DNA from: Methanobrevibacter sp.
GTDB lineage: Archaea; Methanobacteriota; Methanobacteria; Methanobacteriales; Methanobacteriaceae
Assembly (NCBI RefSeq): GCF_030539875.1
Contig: NZ_JAUNXI010000004.1
Span: 83,575-116,923 of the forward strand
Length of the DNA stretch: 33,349 bases
Direction: 5' to 3'
Shown here: positions 17,946 to 31,053 of the stretch, in pieces
Layout: each line of letters opens with the position of its first letter
Numbering within the stretch: the stretch's first letter is position 1
Position numbers and translations under genes: made by a program
Notes under the pieces: generated by a model
Database searches by the model: none
What the model was told of the DNA's origin: nothing
The model's input: the letters and a program-made list of their open reading frames with translations, nothing else

Positions 17946-17989
17946 AAAACATTTATAAGGTAAATAATTATAATATAACAATAGTTATA
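17946..17989 (+). promoter_or_regulatory. cysK promoter with ATAAC-N4-GTTAT operator over the start point
   Basis: AAAACATTTATA at 17946-17957 contains the TATA element and is identical to the block upstream of metY (21797-21808). TATAACAATAGTTATA at 17974-17989 is an inverted repeat with 6-bp arms; its core ATAACAATAGTTAT (17975-17988) is the exact reverse complement of the element at 21817-21830. The expected transcription start lies inside it, the usual place for a repressor that blocks polymerase. Confidence 0.65.
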
Positions 17990-18052: not shown

Positions 18053-19000
18053 ATGGTAAATATTCCAGAATTAAAAAGAGGAGTGCTTGATAGCGTAATT
18101 GATGCTATTGGAAACACTCCAATTATAAAATTAAACAATTTAACAAAAGATTTAGATGCAGAAATTGATGTAAAAATGGAGTCATTCAACCCGACAGGCA
18201 GTGTTAAAGACCGTGTTGCTGTTTCAATGATTGAGGATGCAGAAGAGAAAGGACTGCTAAAGAAAGGCTCTGTCATCATCGAACCTACCAGTGGAAACAC
18301 AGGTATTGGTTTAGGATTTGCTGCTGCTGCAAAAGGTTATAAATTAATACTGACAATGCCTGAAACAATGTCTATTGAAAGAAGAAAACTCTTGGCTATT
18401 TTTGGCGCTGAAATTGTATTAACACCAGGTTCTGAAGGTATGGGCGGAGCCATCAAAAAGGCTGAAGAATTGCATAAAGAAAACCCTAATTCAATAATTT
18501 TGGGCCAATTTGACAACGAAGCTAATGTAGCCATCCATTATAAAACAACCGGTCAGGAAATTTTAAGGGATACTGATGGAGAAGTTGATTATGTTGTTGC
18601 AGGAGTAGGGACTGGCGGAACCATAACAGGAATAGGTAAAGCTTTAAAAGAGGCGCTTCCTCATGTTAAAATTGTTGCTGTTGAGCCGGAAGAGTCACAG
18701 ACTTTATCCAAAGGTATTAAAGGACCTCATAAAATCCAGGGAATCGGTGCAGGGTTTGTTCCATCAATTTATGATTCTGGTGTAATTGATGAGGTTATTC
18801 CCGTACCTAGCGAGGAAGCCGGAAAAACATTAATTGAACTTGCTAAGCATGAGGGTATTTTTACAGGCATTTCTTCTGGAGCAGCAACCTGGGCTGCTTT
18901 GCAATTGGCTAAAAGAAAAGAAAATGAGGGCAAAAGAATAATAGCTATTTTACCGGATAACGGTGAGAGATACCTATCTGAAGAATGGTTATTTAAATAA
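18053..19000 (+). CDS. cysK: Cysteine synthase (O-acetylserine sulfhydrylase)
   Basis: A 315-residue PLP enzyme that makes cysteine from O-acetylserine and sulfide. PLP lysine is K52 in NPTGSVKDR. The phosphate-side TSGNTGIGLGF loop binds the substrate carboxylate, and VGTGGTITGIGKALKE binds the PLP phosphate. Near the C-terminus is LPDNGERYLSEEWLF, typical of CysK/CysM. GGTGA (about 18041-18045) precedes the ATG. Its partner cysE starts 66 bp downstream. Bacterial-type CysK with CysE is not universal in methanogens, many of which make cysteine on tRNA through Sep-tRNA; here free-cysteine synthesis is clearly encoded. Expression is probably controlled at the ATAAC-N4-GTTAT operator. Confidence 0.96.
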   Translation: MVNIPELKRGVLDSVIDAIGNTPIIKLNNLTKDLDAEIDVKMESFNPTGSVKDRVAVSMIEDAEEKGLLKKGSVIIEPTSGNTGIGLGFAAAAKGYKLILTMPETMSIERRKLLAIFGAEIVLTPGSEGMGGAIKKAEELHKENPNSIILGQFDNEANVAIHYKTTGQEILRDTDGEVDYVVAGVGTGGTITGIGKALKEALPHVKIVAVEPEESQTLSKGIKGPHKIQGIGAGFVPSIYDSGVIDEVIPVPSEEAGKTLIELAKHEGIFTGISSGAATWAALQLAKRKENEGKRIIAILPDNGERYLSEEWLFK

Positions 19001-19010
19001 GATAAATTAT

Positions 19011-19060
19011 ATATACTATATGTTATATAGATAAACAGAATAACATTAATATATAGAGGT
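19011..19060 (+). promoter_or_regulatory. cysK-cysE spacer with degenerate operator-like sequence and Shine-Dalgarno
   Basis: The 66-bp spacer contains TACTATATGTTATA (19014-19027), close to the metY operator AACTATTGTTATA but with one extra base, so a weak or lost site. GAGGT (19056-19060) is the cysE ribosome binding site, 6 nt before ATG. Confidence 0.25.
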
Positions 19061-19066
19061 TTATCA

Positions 19067-19774
19067 ATGTTTAAAAATTTAAGGGATGAAATTAAAGCTA
19101 TCAAAGATAAGGATCCGGCTGCAAGGTCAACATTGGAAATTTTCTTATGTTATCCTGGTTTTTATGCTTTATTAATGCATAGAGTGAGCCATTGGCTGTG
19201 GAATCATTCTTTCAAACTTTTGGCACGTATCAATTCCAATATAGCCAGATCTGTTACTGGTATTGAAATTCACCCCGGTGCAACATTTGGTAAACGAGTA
19301 TTTATTGATCATGGTATGGGTGTTGTTGTTGGAGAAACAACAATTGTTGGCGATGATGTGCTAATTTATCAGGGTGTGGTTCTTGGAGGAACCAGTACTG
19401 AAAAGACTAAAAGACACCCGACTATTGAAAAAGGAGTTATTGTTGGTGCCGGTGCTAAAGTAATGGGTAATATTACTATTGGAGAGTATTCTAAAATTGG
19501 TACTGGTGCTGTTGTTTTAAAAGACGTTCCTCCTGAATCAACATGTGTAGGCATTCCAGGCCGTATTGTAAAACGTAAAGGTGTGCCTCATGAAAGAGTT
19601 GATTTAGACCATGATAAACTTCCGGACCCTGTTGCCGACGCATTTAGAACTATAGTAAAGCATCTTCAGGAAAATGATGAGCAAATCAAAATTTTATTTG
19701 ATAAAAATGAGATATGCTTGGCTGATGATTCTAATGATGAACAGGAAGATTTGGAAAATTTGTTTAAGAAATAG
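19067..19774 (+). CDS. cysE: Serine O-acetyltransferase
   Basis: A 235-residue enzyme that acetylates serine with acetyl-CoA to give O-acetylserine, the CysK substrate. The N-terminal helical part includes LCYPGFYALLMHRVSHWLW (catalytic-domain entry, His in HRVSH). The left-handed beta-helix of hexapeptide repeats begins at IEIHPGATFGKRVFIDHGMG (catalytic His in DHGMG) and continues through VGETTIVGDDVLIYQGVVLG and GAKVMGNITIGEYSKIGTGA, then PPESTCVGIPGR. It resembles the short bacterial form (about 170-230 residues). The acidic tail (DDSNDEQEDLENLFKK) lacks the C-terminal Ile that CysE usually inserts into CysK, so a CysK-CysE complex is less certain. The regulator gene follows after 12 bp. 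Confidence 0.95.
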   Translation: MFKNLRDEIKAIKDKDPAARSTLEIFLCYPGFYALLMHRVSHWLWNHSFKLLARINSNIARSVTGIEIHPGATFGKRVFIDHGMGVVVGETTIVGDDVLIYQGVVLGGTSTEKTKRHPTIEKGVIVGAGAKVMGNITIGEYSKIGTGAVVLKDVPPESTCVGIPGRIVKRKGVPHERVDLDHDKLPDPVADAFRTIVKHLQENDEQIKILFDKNEICLADDSNDEQEDLENLFKK

Positions 19775-19786
19775 AAGTGATTAGAT

Positions 19787-20161
19787 ATGAAGCCGCCTTG
19801 TGAAATTGTTGTATGGTATGTTATACCGGCTATTAGATCTGAATTAGCTAAAGAACTTTTAAATTTGGGAATGAAGCAAAAGGATGTTTCTGAACTTATG
19901 GATATTACTCAGCCTGCTGTGTCTCAATATATTACTGATAAGCGAGGTAGTGGAATTAGACTTGATGAAGATGTAAGGGAAATGATTCAAACATTTGCTA
20001 ATCAGCTTTTTGAAGGTGAAGCTACTAAAGCAGATTTAATTCCGAGAACTTGTAAAATTTGTAATAATGTGAATATATCTGATGTATTAAAACAACTTGA
20101 CATTGACAAATCACACATTAGTGAGGATTGCCAATCTTGTTTGGGTTCTGAGATAAATTAG
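19787..20161 (+). CDS. Small HTH regulator with C-terminal four-cysteine site
   Basis: A 124-residue protein. Residues ~15-60 form an XRE-like helix-turn-helix: LLNLGMKQKDVSELMDITQP then AVSQYITDKRGSG. The C-terminus holds two cysteine pairs, C89-x2-C92 (TCKICN) and C115-x2-C118 (DCQSCLG), 22 residues apart, enough to bind zinc or an iron-sulfur cluster; C5 is a fifth cysteine. It resembles archaeal XRE-type predicted regulators (COG2522-like). It lies 12 bp after cysE and before tRNA-Cys and cysS, inside the cysteine island. The island's two main promoters share an operator, so I propose it as their regulator, sensing sulfur, cysteine or cluster status through the cysteines. Binding has not been shown here; the operator may belong to another protein. 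Confidence 0.85.
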   Translation: MKPPCEIVVWYVIPAIRSELAKELLNLGMKQKDVSELMDITQPAVSQYITDKRGSGIRLDEDVREMIQTFANQLFEGEATKADLIPRTCKICNNVNISDVLKQLDIDKSHISEDCQSCLGSEIN

Positions 20162-20233: not shown

Positions 20234-20305
20234 GGCAAGTTTACCGAGTGGCTTAGGTGTGTGGCTGCAGACCATAATACGGGGGTTCAAATCCCTCACT
20301 TGCCT
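20234..20305 (+). tRNA. tRNA-Cys (anticodon GCA)
   Basis: A full cloverleaf: acceptor GGCAAGT pairs with ACTTGCC; D-stem ACC/GGT with GG in the loop; anticodon stem TGTGG/CCATA with loop CTGCAGA, anticodon GCA; short 4-nt variable loop; T-stem GGGGG/CCCTC with loop TTCAAAT. The discriminator base is T (U73), the main identity element of tRNA-Cys. CCA is not encoded and no intron is present. It lies 32 nt upstream of cysS on the same strand, so tRNA and cognate synthetase are probably on one transcript. Confidence 0.96.
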
Positions 20306-21796: not shown

Positions 21797-21831
21797 AAAA
21801 CATTTATATATAAAAAATAACTATTGTTATA
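21797..21831 (+). promoter_or_regulatory. metY promoter with the same operator as cysK
   Basis: AAAACATTTATA at 21797-21808 is identical to the cysK TATA block. ATAACTATTGTTAT at 21817-21830 is the cysK operator core in reverse orientation. The predicted start point again falls in the operator. Identity of both blocks in two promoters 3.8 kb apart, both for sulfur amino-acid genes, is strong evidence of a shared regulator. Confidence 0.65.
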
Positions 21832-21832
21832 T

Positions 21833-21858
21833 GTGAATATAACACGTGACATATTCAC
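21833..21858 (+). promoter_or_regulatory. 8-bp inverted repeat in the metY leader
   Basis: GTGAATAT (21833-21840) and ATATTCAC (21851-21858) flank a 10-nt spacer containing CACGTG. It begins 2 bp after the operator and lies in the probable 5' leader, so it could be an RNA hairpin or a second protein-binding site. Confidence 0.4.
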
Positions 21859-21886
21859 AAAAATCAGATTATAAAGGTGATAATTA

Positions 21887-23185
21887 ATGACAAATAAAAA
21901 TTACGGATTAGCAACATTAGGTGTACGTGCAGGCCAACAGCCTGATTCTGCAACTGGAGCTCAAGCGGTTCCGATTTATCAGACAACTTCATATGTATTT
22001 AAAGATGCGGATGAAGCTGCTAGGAGATTCGCCCTTCAAGAGTTTGGTCAAATTTATTCCAGACTTACCAATCCTACCAGCGATGTATTCGAAGCAAGAA
22101 TTGCCGCTATCGAAGGAGGTAATTCTGCTATTTCAACATCAAGTGGTCTTGCAGCAATTTCATATGCAATTTTAAACGTAACTAGTCCTGGTGACAACAT
22201 TGTTTCTGCTGACAACCTTTACGGTGGTACTTATCAATTATTTAACTACACTTTTAAAGATTTGGCCCGTGAAGTTAAATTTGTAAACTCACAGAACCTG
22301 CAAGCATTTGAAGAGGCAATTGATGAAAAAACCAAAGCAATATATGTGGAATCAATTGGAAACCCAAAATTGGATGTTCCGGACTTTGAAGCATTGGCAG
22401 AAATTGCACATTCACATGATATTCCGTTAATCGTAGACAATACTGTTGGTGTTGGATTGGTCAGGCCATTATTGCATGGAGCTGATGTGATTGCAGCATC
22501 TGCAACTAAATATGTTGGCGGTCACGGAACTGCCGTTGGAGGATATATTGTGGATTCAGGTAAATTTAACTGGGGTAACGGCAAGTTTGATAACTTCACA
22601 AAACCTGATCCAAGTTATCACGGACTTGTATTCTGGGATGCGTTTGGTGATGTTCCTGAACTTGGAAACATTGCTTTTACTGTAAGGGCAAGAGCAAGAC
22701 TATTGAGGGATTTAGGAGCAACCCAGGCACCTGTACACAGTTTCATATTCTTGCAGGGACTTGAAAGCCTGGATGTGCGTGTAAAAAGACACTCTGAAAA
22801 TGCACTTAAAGTTGCAAAATTTTTAGAAAGTCATCCTAAAGTGGCTTGGGTTAACTATCCTGGACTTAAATCACATCCAACTTATGAAAATAATAAAAAA
22901 TACCTTAAAGATAACTTTGCAGGAGTCTTGGGATTCGGTGTTAAAGGAGGTGAGGAAGCAGGCAGGAAATTAATTGAAAAATTGGAATTATTCTCAATTC
23001 TTGCAAATATTGGAGATGCAAAAAGTCTTGCAATACACCCTGCAAGTACAACACATCAGCAATTGTCTCCAGAAGAACAAGAAGCAACAGGAGTTACACC
23101 GGACTTTATTAGGCTTTCAATAGGTCTTGAAGATGCTGATGATTTAATTGATGATTTAAGTCATGCACTTGACAATATTGACTAG
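21887..23185 (+). CDS. metY: O-acetylhomoserine (thiol)-lyase / O-acetylserine sulfhydrylase, MetY type
   Basis: A 432-residue Cys/Met-metabolism PLP enzyme that makes homocysteine from O-acetylhomoserine and sulfide. PLP lysine is K208 in SATKYVGGHG; the length and the PSYHGLVFWDAFG insertion fit the MetY group rather than cystathionine synthase or lyase (about 380-400 residues). Other signatures: YSRLTNPTSDVFEARIAAIE, NLYGGTYQLF, YVESIGNPKLDVPD, the C-terminal SLAIHPASTTHQQL and LSIGLEDADDL. GGTGAT (about 21875-21880) lies 6 nt before the ATG. Promoter and operator match those of cysK. The nifS gene follows after 43 bp and may share the transcript. Confidence 0.94.
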   Translation: MTNKNYGLATLGVRAGQQPDSATGAQAVPIYQTTSYVFKDADEAARRFALQEFGQIYSRLTNPTSDVFEARIAAIEGGNSAISTSSGLAAISYAILNVTSPGDNIVSADNLYGGTYQLFNYTFKDLAREVKFVNSQNLQAFEEAIDEKTKAIYVESIGNPKLDVPDFEALAEIAHSHDIPLIVDNTVGVGLVRPLLHGADVIAASATKYVGGHGTAVGGYIVDSGKFNWGNGKFDNFTKPDPSYHGLVFWDAFGDVPELGNIAFTVRARARLLRDLGATQAPVHSFIFLQGLESLDVRVKRHSENALKVAKFLESHPKVAWVNYPGLKSHPTYENNKKYLKDNFAGVLGFGVKGGEEAGRKLIEKLELFSILANIGDAKSLAIHPASTTHQQLSPEEQEATGVTPDFIRLSIGLEDADDLIDDLSHALDNID

Positions 23186-28136: not shown

Positions 28137-29027
28137 ATGACTTTAGGAAATTACTGTAAAAAATGCGGCCACAGAATTCTTCCAAATAACATATATTGTC
28201 CCGGTTGTGGTTTTAAAACTGGATATTATGAAACAGAAGAGTCTACTGTATTTGCACCTCCAATACACAATATTGGCTTTTTTAATTTTCCTATTGACTT
28301 TTCTCCATTTATTTTAAGCGGCCGTCGCGATTTTCAATATGAAATCTGCCGTTGCGGATACCTAAATGATGTTAATAATGAATTTTGCTATATGTGCGGA
28401 GCAAAAAGAACTCCCAGTAAACTGGCTAAAATTTTAAAAAAGAAATCTAAGCCAAAATTTAATTTGGATAGTGTTTTATGTGAATGCGGTGCAGTTAATT
28501 CTAAAGAAGATTTATTTTGTGAAATGTGTGGCAAACAGCTTCAAGAAGAGGAGACATTTGAGGATAACAATAACTACAGTAATTTCAATATAATGTATAA
28601 AGATTCTGTTTTTTGCTTTTGCGGAGAGGAAAACGAAAAATCCACACAATTTTGTAAAAATTGCGGTTTGCCCCTTATTAATTATTCCCAACTAAATGAT
28701 GTCATGTTGTTATGTGCTTGTTCCACTTTAAATGATGTTAATTCTTCTTTCTGTATAGAGTGTGGAGAAAATTTAACAAAAGAAAATTCCCTTATTGTTT
28801 GTGTTTGTGGTCAGAAGAATCCAATGAATTTTAAATTCTGTCAGAATTGCGAAAGGCCATTAAATCCCCAAAGAATAATTAAATCAAAAATTGTTTGTTC
28901 ATGTGGTGAAATTCTTGACTGGAATACTGAATTTTGCTCTAACTGCGGTAAAAATATTAAAAACATGATAAAGATTAGGAGATCCACTATTAAGATAGTA
29001 AAAAGCCTTAAAAGCAAGTTTAGGTAG
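28137..29027 (+). CDS. Protein of seven tandem zinc ribbons
   Basis: A 296-residue protein made largely of zinc ribbons. The first is CxxC-x10-CxxC (C7, C10, C21, C24). Six more follow with a fixed C-x-C-x10-C-x2-C pattern: CRCG...CYMCG, CECG...CEMCG, CFCG...CKNCG, CACS...CIECG, CVCG...CQNCE and CSCG...CSNCG. The CxC first knuckle in all six is unusual for ribbons, which normally have CxxC. An aromatic Pro/Phe-rich segment (about 39-60) separates ribbon 1 from the others, and the tail is basic (KIRRSTIKIVKSLKSKFR). It lies 13 bp after the DHH protein and directly before another zinc-ribbon protein, so all three are likely one operon. Function unknown; protein or nucleic-acid scaffolding is a guess. 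Confidence 0.85.
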   Translation: MTLGNYCKKCGHRILPNNIYCPGCGFKTGYYETEESTVFAPPIHNIGFFNFPIDFSPFILSGRRDFQYEICRCGYLNDVNNEFCYMCGAKRTPSKLAKILKKKSKPKFNLDSVLCECGAVNSKEDLFCEMCGKQLQEEETFEDNNNYSNFNIMYKDSVFCFCGEENEKSTQFCKNCGLPLINYSQLNDVMLLCACSTLNDVNSSFCIECGENLTKENSLIVCVCGQKNPMNFKFCQNCERPLNPQRIIKSKIVCSCGEILDWNTEFCSNCGKNIKNMIKIRRSTIKIVKSLKSKFR

Positions 29028-29035
29028 TGATTTTT

Positions 29036-30013
29036 TTGAAAATTTGTGATGTTTGCGGAACTTTTAACTTTAAAGAAAATAATTATTGCACCCATTGCGG
29101 TAATTGCTTTATTGATGAGCATATCTGTCCTTATTGCGGGTCAGTTAATTTGGATTATGCAGACAAGTGTATTAAATGCGATAAACAGATAAATCCGATT
29201 TATATCAGTGATTTTGATGTGTTGTTTAGTGAATTTAATGAAGAATTATTATCTAATGCCAGTATAAGTGATGAGAAATACAATGAGTTGTTATCGGATA
29301 TTTTTATAAGGGCCAATTTTACAGAAATCTATGACGATACAATAAAAAATAAAATTTTAAAGCTGGCCAGTATTTTTACTCCATGCGAGCCTAAATCAAG
29401 GGGATATGAGCGGGGATTCATATTTTTAGGTAATCGAATTTATTATGATGATAGATTGGATGAATCAATTCAAATAGCAACTATTGTTCATGAATTGGCT
29501 CATTATCTTTTATTTACTATAATAGAGTCTTTACTGTGTGATATATTTAAAGTCAGAACCTCATCAACATTGCAAAGCTTTATATGGTATTTTTTAACTC
29601 TTCCCGAGTTTAAAATCATGAATGAATACTGTGCACACACTGTTGAAGGCAGATTCATCCCATTCGGATATCAGAATTACGGATCATTTAATTCATTAGT
29701 TGAAAATACTTCTTTGGATGATGAATCTGTTAGAACTATGATGGTGTTTGGAAATTCATTTGCTAATGAAATTATTGTCTATCTTGAAAGATATATTGGA
29801 CATGATTTAAGGCATGAAATAAAATTACAGTATAAAATGGACTTAAATGAACCAAATTATGATTCGATATTTGCAGAGACAAATGATTGTCTTCCGTTAA
29901 ATGTTAAAAATAGTATGCTAATAAAAATTTTGTATGATATTTTTAAAGAAACATCAAAACCGGAGACCCGTATGGAATTGGAAAGTATTAAGGAAGGAAT
30001 TGACATTTCCTAA
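29036..30013 (+). CDS. Zinc-ribbon protein with HELAH metallopeptidase-like motif
   Basis: A 325-residue protein. Two ribbons lie at the N-terminus: CDVCG...CTHCG and CPYCG...CIKCD (within residues 1-50). After a helical linker, TIVHELAHYLLF (H152-E153-x2-H156) is a zincin HExxH motif. A possible third ligand is the Glu in NEYCAHTVEGRF about 50 residues later, as in gluzincin or SprT-like folds. No signal peptide is present, so a cytoplasmic peptidase is suggested. I use TTG 29036 because AGGT (29022-29025) is 10 nt upstream; GTG 29027 is the alternative. It starts 8 bp after the seven-ribbon gene. Its stop codon overlaps that of the convergent regulator gene. Peptidase activity is inferred from the motif alone. 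Confidence 0.8.
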   Translation: MKICDVCGTFNFKENNYCTHCGNCFIDEHICPYCGSVNLDYADKCIKCDKQINPIYISDFDVLFSEFNEELLSNASISDEKYNELLSDIFIRANFTEIYDDTIKNKILKLASIFTPCEPKSRGYERGFIFLGNRIYYDDRLDESIQIATIVHELAHYLLFTIIESLLCDIFKVRTSSTLQSFIWYFLTLPEFKIMNEYCAHTVEGRFIPFGYQNYGSFNSLVENTSLDDESVRTMMVFGNSFANEIIVYLERYIGHDLRHEIKLQYKMDLNEPNYDSIFAETNDCLPLNVKNSMLIKILYDIFKETSKPETRMELESIKEGIDIS

Positions 30014-30297
30014 TATTTTTTTTCTTTGATTTCGATGTTTTTCAATACATCTTTTCCGGTATCGGTTAATCTGTATAACCTTCCTTTACGGGCTTCTTCA
30101 TTGATACACTCAACAATTTCTTTACTCTTCAATTCACTTAAAACTTTTGAAATATGATTAGTTCTAATACCACTATCTTTTGCAATGTTGGTTGGAATTT
30201 TAACTTCATCTCCAATAGACTTTAATGTTTTTTCTCTATATTTGGAAATCTGAACATAGGAAGTTAACTTTAAGAGTTCATCATTTTGTTTTGACAT
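30010..30297 (-). CDS. Small winged-helix transcriptional regulator
   Basis: A 95-residue protein with a winged-helix fold: KIPTNIAKDSGIRTNHISKV (helix-turn-helix, about 34-53), LSELKSKEIVECINEEARKG (recognition helix end and wing), then RLYRLTDTGKDVLKNIE (wing strand and last helix). There is no ligand-binding domain and no cysteine. Similar small regulators are frequent in Methanobacteriales. Its promoter region has a perfect 24-bp palindrome (30318-30341) that covers the TATA element, so it probably represses itself. Its stop codon overlaps by four bases with the end of the convergent zinc-ribbon/HELAH gene. Target genes other than itself could include the divergent zinc-ribbon membrane protein gene at 30442. 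Confidence 0.85.
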   Translation of the reverse strand: MSKQNDELLKLTSYVQISKYREKTLKSIGDEVKIPTNIAKDSGIRTNHISKVLSELKSKEIVECINEEARKGRLYRLTDTGKDVLKNIEIKEKKY

Positions 30298-30317
30298 AAT
30301 AGAATATTATCTATTTC

Positions 30318-30341
30318 ATGTTATAAAATAGTTTATAACAT
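30318..30341 (-). promoter_or_regulatory. 24-bp palindromic operator over the promoter of the winged-helix gene
   Basis: ATGTTATAAA (30318-30327) and TTTATAACAT (30332-30341) are perfect 10-bp arms with a 4-nt spacer. On the minus strand it contains the TATA element; the expected start lies near 30300, right at the start codon (30297). Binding of a dimer there would shut off transcription. Confidence 0.6.
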
Positions 30342-30441
30342 TATACACACCAATTTGATTATTATAGAATATTTTTCGATTAATTTATAAATTAATAATA
30401 TCAAATTTAATATCAATTGACTTTAATTATATGGGGATTAT

Positions 30442-31053
30442 ATGGAATGTGACAATTGCGGTTTTAAAAATAAAAGTAACGCTAGATACTGCACAAAATG
30501 CGGAAGTCCTCTAAATGAGGTTGAAGCATATGATTCAAATACTGCTTCTAAAAGCAACTCTAAGATTATAATAATATCTTTAATTGTTATTATTTTTATT
30601 CTTCTTGGGTGCATTGGATTTTTTGCTTTAAATAATAATACAAATACCCAGGAAGTTCCAAAAAATGCTGTTATACAAGAGGATTCATCACAAAATATAA
30701 ATCAGAATAATGATTTGGAATCTGCATCTATTTCATCAAAACAGGCAGTTGAATCAAAATCATGGAAGTCAATCGGTAAATTTTCAGGATCAGGTTCAGG
30801 ATTTGAGACAGTTTCTGTTCCTGAAGGAAAAATAATGGTGAAACTTTCAGCTTATCCGATTAAAAATTATGCAACTAATCATTTGTATGTTTCAGGGTCC
30901 AATGGCGAGTCTGGCGGTGTTGACTGGAACTCAAAAAGCGCTGTTAAAACAAAATCAGATTCATTTACCTACACTTCATCTTCACCGGTGGAATTTACCA
31001 TTGATTATGATGAGACTGTAAGTTGGAATGTTGAATTCTTCAAATATCAATAA
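30442..31053 (+). CDS. Zinc-ribbon membrane protein with an outer beta-rich domain
   Basis: A 203-residue protein. Its N-terminus is one zinc ribbon (C3, C6, C18, C21; ECDNCGFKNKSNARYCTKCG). One membrane helix follows (about 43-66, IIIISLIVIIFILLGCIGFF), then an Asn/Gln-rich linker and a C-terminal ~100-residue region rich in beta strands and aromatic residues (KSWKSIGKFSGSGSGFETVS and onward). The ribbon should face the cytoplasm and the beta domain the outside. Such zinc-ribbon plus helix proteins are common in methanogens; their role is not known. It is divergent from the winged-helix gene and lies 32 bp upstream of rnp3, so it may be the first gene of the RNase P transcript. Confidence 0.8.
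   Translation: MECDNCGFKNKSNARYCTKCGSPLNEVEAYDSNTASKSNSKIIIISLIVIIFILLGCIGFFALNNNTNTQEVPKNAVIQEDSSQNINQNNDLESASISSKQAVESKSWKSIGKFSGSGSGFETVSVPEGKIMVKLSAYPIKNYATNHLYVSGSNGESGGVDWNSKSAVKTKSDSFTYTSSSPVEFTIDYDETVSWNVEFFKYQ

Follow-up and report, generated by a model that had tools for sequence, protein, structure and literature searches.

A helix-turn-helix protein with five invariant cysteines as a probable switch for sulfur use in a family of gut and rumen methanogens

Methanogens live on sulfide and are heavily Fe-S dependent, and how their sulfur supply is matched to the synthesis of cysteine, coenzyme M and clusters is at issue. In a 33,349-nt stretch of a Methanobrevibacter genome (hereafter the window), a small gene for an XRE-type helix-turn-helix (HTH) protein with paired cysteines lies among genes of cysteine metabolism, which raises the question of what DNA this protein binds and what its cysteines report. 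In the open literature that we searched, we found neither a regulator of sulfur assimilation in Methanobacteriales nor a description of this protein, its operator or a role for COG2522. Judging from sequence comparisons, the protein is probably a switch for sulfur use in its family, that is, for cysteine and methionine synthesis, sulfur movement and the building of sulfur-containing cofactors. A named protein, an operator and a list of targets make this directly testable in Methanobrevibacter or Methanosphaera, which inhabit the human gut and the rumen, the latter a site of methane production.

The first-pass annotation had placed a 124-residue XRE-like protein with a CxxC-x22-CxxC pattern between cysE and tRNA-Cys/cysS. 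The open reading frame, its Pfam match and the gene map agree with all of this (Table 1), and Cys5, which had gone unmentioned, is to be added to the pattern. Downstream of the regulator gene lies cysS; farther along the window come metY and the genes for a cysteine desulfurase and an IscU-like protein. An Rfam search matched the tRNA alone.

Table 1. Positions of the regulator gene, its predicted operators and neighbouring genes in the window
Feature	Position	Strand	Remarks
Operator ATAACAATAGTTAT of the cysK-cysE-regulator operon	17975..17988		starts 23 nt after the start of the TATA box TTTATAA (17952)
cysK (cysteine synthase)	18053..19000	+	first gene of the predicted operon; named by sequence
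Degenerate operator-like site ATACTATATGTTAT before cysE-regulator	19013..19026		weaker site
cysE (serine acetyltransferase)	19067..19774	+	ends 12 bp before the regulator; named by sequence
Regulator gene	19787..20161	+	encodes an XRE-type HTH protein of 124 aa whose C-terminal part is a cysteine module; ATG start, twelve bases 3' of the cysE end
Cys5 codon, PPCEIVVWY motif	19799..19801	+	invariant in 95/95 orthologs
Helix-turn-helix, residues 29-50	19871..19936	+	Pfam and predicted helices 31-38 and 42-50
Putative recognition segment ITQPAVSQY, residues 40-48	within HTH 19871..19936	+	
First CxxC (C89, C92)	20051..20062	+	invariant
Second CxxC (C115, C118)	20129..20140	+	invariant
tRNA-Cys(GCA)	20234..20305	+	
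Operator ATAACTATTGTTAT of metY	21817..21830		starts 14 nt after the start of the TATA box TTTATATA (21803)
metY (O-acetylhomoserine sulfhydrylase type)	21887..23185	+	regulon member; named by sequence

The protein belongs to the XRE/Cro HTH type by its match to HTH_3 (PF01381) over residues 21-53, which passes the curated Pfam cut-off narrowly (E 5.4e-5, 23.6 bits against 23); the same domain was matched by all 16 members of the family alignment (E<=0.01). Pfam, NCBIfam and PDB sequence searches returned generic HTH matches and nothing more specific. The AlphaFold model (mean pLDDT 83.5, the final part weaker) places the cysteine pairs in or at helices 81-93 and 113-119, and it had no PDB match with E below 0.4. 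The full cysteine pattern is C89-x2-C92-x22-C115-x2-C118 plus Cys5, the last within the N-terminal motif PPCEIVVWYVIP. Beyond the HTH and this cysteine module, no domain was found in Pfam, the family alignment or the model.

Orthologs were present in 102 of the 120 Methanobacteriales genomes sampled, all of them within the window's own family, and were absent from the twelve genomes of two other families of the order. The best 80 loci from a search of genome contigs all came from Methanobacteriaceae or close relatives. None of the five cysteines varies among the 95 aligned orthologs, so the cysteine pattern is not due to chance. The recognition segment ITQ-x-A is equally invariant, single changes excepted. 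Many relatives outside the window's close group carry two extra candidate ligands (LCxLH between the CxxC pairs), giving six Cys/His positions (two CxxC with a CxxH between them), and these are missing from the window's lineage. The order cysK-cysE-regulator is kept through much of the family; in other genera the regulator stands beside cysE, cysK or metY in varied orders, and in Methanosphaera-like genomes it stands alone. In three such cases (L101, L104, L113) the lone gene is near a glutamate-cysteine-ligase-like gene, and another gene of that kind (L226) has the operator in its promoter.

The candidate operator is the palindrome ATAAC-N4-GTTAT, whose exact form occurs in the window only before cysK and before metY. 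At the degenerate site before cysE, 35 of 67 relatives have a version with one mismatch, where about 3 would be expected. Across the sampled genomes, the exact palindrome was found within 300 bp upstream of cysK at 51 of 60 loci and of metY at 37 of 41, where shuffled sequences give about 0.1. The first-pass annotation had named the joint occurrence of the protein and an operator before cysK/metY as a check, and these counts speak in its favour. The copies are often tandem, with commonest spacings of 15 at cysK and 20 at metY; the tandem pattern was detected in 57 of the 120 genomes, whereas none of them contained the reversed control pattern. The distance from the start of the TTTATA box to the operator is fixed, namely 23 nt at cysK (31 cases) and 14 nt at metY (43 cases). 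The operator thereby lies between the TATA box and the transcription start or over the start, and such positions are where archaeal repressors act. From this placement, binding should block either the recruitment or the escape of RNA polymerase.

Neither the window nor its own genome shows by itself an enrichment of the loose pattern (12 sites in the genome against 13 in the reversed control), which would suit an explanation by chance or by an AT-rich promoter feature; half of these 12 sites are inside genes. Such an explanation is very hard to credit given the conserved tandem copies with their empty control, the fixed TATA spacing and the near absence from coding sequence: just 4 of 119 stringent sites in the loci retrieved fell inside ORFs of 100 aa or more, though 74% of that DNA is coding. 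We therefore take the palindrome as a real operator, because it is conserved and consistently placed in other genomes. As for metY, a second conserved palindrome, TGTGAATATAACACGTGACATATTCACA (21832-21859), is present downstream of the operator, and relatives retain TATAACACGTGATATA 22-23 nt past the main site. Within this second palindrome lies ATAAC-ACGT-GAYAT, an operator with one to two mismatches, so that the palindrome may be an additional site of lower strength or else an element of its own.

In the stringent form of the operator, ATAACWATNGTTAT, 784 sites were counted in the 102 regulator-positive genomes against 84 for the control. Enrichment was observed in 96 of these 102 genomes and in 2 of the 18 that are regulator-negative; among genomes at least 90% complete, the figures are 72 of 75 with the regulator and 0 of 13 without it. 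The two enriched regulator-negative genomes (G099 and G108) are 82-87% complete and lack the cysE locus as well, so the regulator probably lies in an assembly gap. Twelve of the 18 regulator-negative genomes represent the two outgroup families, so that the co-occurrence partly reflects shared ancestry, and for this reason the exceptions matter. Family members in which the regulator is absent or interrupted by a stop codon (G071, G100, G103, G114 and G039) have lost the operator sites or retain few of them. Of these, G114 has cysK-cysE-cysS with no regulator between; its cysK is preceded by a one-mismatch site, and the whole genome contains a single stringent site. The complete genome G039 has a stop codon inside its regulator gene and shows no enrichment.

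The operator might also be bound by a different transcription factor, with the HTH protein at 19787 acting on some other target. The link between regulator and operator is indeed indirect, phylogenetic profiles are confounded by ancestry, and two complete genomes (G037 and G050) have the gene while stringent sites are absent. In G037, an apparently intact regulator has moved away from cysKE, and no operator is present there. G050 has the sole ortholog with a changed recognition segment, ITQAAVSQY. Against this, the regulator gene is itself situated in operator-preceded operons of several gene orders: cysK-cysE-regulator, divergent metY/regulator (L112), regulator-cysE (L123) and cysS-cysK-regulator-cysE (L124), with the operator at promoter position. 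The loss of sites along with the gene also speaks against it, as does the fact that no other regulator gene recurs among the targets at the roughly 100 loci examined. We regard this alternative as improbable and hold, with the first-pass annotation, that the HTH protein is the candidate for the operator, on the strength of both the co-occurrence and the operators before its own operons. In G050 (L125, L421), the regulator's own promoter carries TAACAGTGTTA, an inverted repeat with different spacing; together with the changed recognition segment, this is possibly a single case of protein-DNA covariation.

The predicted regulon was compiled from some 17 genomes, in which about 100 loci with stringent or tandem sites were retrieved; the targets metY, cysK, cysE and SufC are named by sequence likeness. 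Among the families that occurred two or more times as targets are metY, cysK, cysE, MetX, NifS, ThiI, ThiS, ThiF/MoeB and MoaE, as well as LarE, HcgB, HdrC, NifB, NifH-like and nitrogenase component-1-like proteins, FeoB and sulfonate/NMT1-type binding proteins. ComA, SufC, TusA, MetK and a glutamate-cysteine ligase are among the single cases. Of the 25 recurrent families, by our count, about 19 have to do with sulfur, Fe-S or metallo-sulfur cofactors. For one family (cluster 12), a reading as ThiC was rejected, since Pfam gives the nitrogenase component-1 type. In the window's own genome, promoter-positioned sites precede cysK, metY, comA and a NifB-like radical SAM gene. At the last of these (L305, around G000:C7:56073), the operator ATAACAGTAGTTAT is located 36 nt before the start codon, although the genus is not known to fix nitrogen. 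Genes for small proteins are found repeatedly straight behind the operator in several genomes (L225, L230, L239; L220, L211; L216, L248, L296). Where searched against Pfam and NCBIfam they had no match, and they are candidates for unknown sulfur-related functions. The idea that the protein senses sulfur or cluster status fits with this regulon, which is wider than could be seen from the window.

Taken together, we consider it likely that this protein, as a dimer, represses a regulon of sulfur and metallo-sulfur genes that includes its own gene, and that its cysteine module is the sensor and most likely holds a labile Fe-S cluster. According to this model, a dimer would bind the 14-bp palindrome (best core AATA/TATT) through its XRE-type HTH, often at tandem sites 14-21 bp apart, and would control cysKE, itself and metY. 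Depending on the genus, it would also control genes for cysteine desulfurase, Fe-S assembly, tRNA and cofactor thiolation and coenzyme M, and further those for molybdopterin, the FeGP cofactor and nitrogenase-like proteins. As the protein has no other part, either the HTH or the cysteine module must contain the sensor. The C-terminal four-cysteine module and Cys5 would hold a metal-thiolate centre that is assembled while sulfide and cysteine are abundant and lost once they run short. An Fe-S-sensing regulator would be expected to conserve three or four cysteines, and five are invariant here. Provided that the pairing of regulator and operator is right, we give an Fe-S cluster in this centre something close to an even chance, and favour it over zinc and, after that, over a thiol switch.

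As for zinc, the same regulator and operator would be at work, but the cysteines would hold a structural metal, and the signal would be a small molecule that binds at another place, namely cysteine, O-acetylserine, O-acetylhomoserine or sulfide. The CxxC...CxxC spacing is typical of zinc sites, and from the six Cys/His positions of many relatives different lineages keep different sets of four, e.g. Cys4 in Methanobrevibacter and Cys3His in haloarchaeal proteins of the ThiR type. However, a regulator made of just an HTH and a cysteine module has no ligand domain for such a signal, and Cys5 is also invariant while lying outside the module, so we find the zinc reading rather unlikely, if still a serious one.

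The thiol-switch reading again keeps the regulator and operator. Here the cysteines would respond to sulfide, polysulfide or the redox state by thiol/disulfide or persulfide switching, as the CxxC of SurR does. SurR is an ArsR-like winged helix with a single CxxC redox switch. In Thermococcales, it is an archaeal regulator of sulfur-linked genes, as proposed here, though with another regulon. The SurR of Pyrococcus, cited as a sulfur-dependent redox regulator in a passage of PMC10746257, offers a precedent, and the two CxxC pairs with Cys5, as well as the sulfur genes among the targets, would suit such a switch. On the other hand, the cytosol of Methanobrevibacter, a strict anaerobe, is reducing, and the two pairs are always retained together, a pattern that suggests a metal site rather than a single redox disulfide. 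We deem a thiol switch unlikely, and retain the labile cluster as our preferred sensor.

Concerning the origin of the protein, a search of plasmid records retrieved haloarchaeal relatives annotated as thiamine-phosphate synthase family, which are HTH-ThiN fusions of the ThiR type. ThiR-type thiamine regulators of archaea, in which an HTH is said to be fused to ThiN, were reportedly described by Rodionov and colleagues in 2017 (J Bacteriol 199:e00743-16, as cited in PMC10746257). In hhalign comparisons, our regulator aligned with two such haloarchaeal proteins at a probability of 97-98% (E 1.9e-11 and 1.1e-14, 119-120 columns), its full length corresponding to the ThiR HTH and the Cys/His stretch that follows. 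In contrast to ThiR, the 124-aa protein has no C-terminal ThiN domain (PF10120), which is absent from the whole genome too, while Cys5 and the first CxxC, present in the regulator, are missing from the haloarchaeal proteins compared. From this, we infer a ThiR-type regulator devoid of its ligand domain rather than a ThiR. The targets differ as well: whereas ThiR regulates thiamine genes, those predicted here serve cysteine, methionine, sulfur transfer and metallo-sulfur centres, and ThiS, ThiF and ThiI among them are sulfur-transfer proteins and do not make this a thiamine regulon.

Tentatively, and with some doubt, these observations can be read as a family-wide archaeal sulfur and metallo-sulfur regulon under a stand-alone ThiR-type HTH protein, in which an Fe-S cluster held by the cysteine module would have replaced the lost ThiN as the sensor, one ancestral regulator having given rise to both vitamin and sulfur/cluster regulators. 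The Cys/His set of the haloarchaeal ThiR relatives, which occupy oxic habitats, is as compatible with structural zinc as with a cluster. In its proposed manner of working, with a cysteine-bound centre reporting sulfur or Fe-S status, the protein would be analogous to bacterial Fe-S regulators of the IscR, SufR and RirA types, whose targets (desulfurase, assembly and cofactor genes) are similar. These have Rrf2 or ArsR-like winged-helix folds, unlike the regulator, and we found no sequence relation to them. The bacterial regulators CymR, CysB and CmbR likewise act on cysK, methionine synthesis and sulfur uptake, but differ in family and operator; they sense O-acetylserine or the CysK complex.

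Two further features of the window were observed. Downstream of the cysteine genes, a run of genes (28137-31053) encodes proteins rich in zinc-ribbon (CxxC) repeats, one of which has a metallopeptidase-like HExxH stretch. Within the same region, a 95-aa winged-helix-like protein encoded on the minus strand (30010-30297) represents another DNA-binding candidate.
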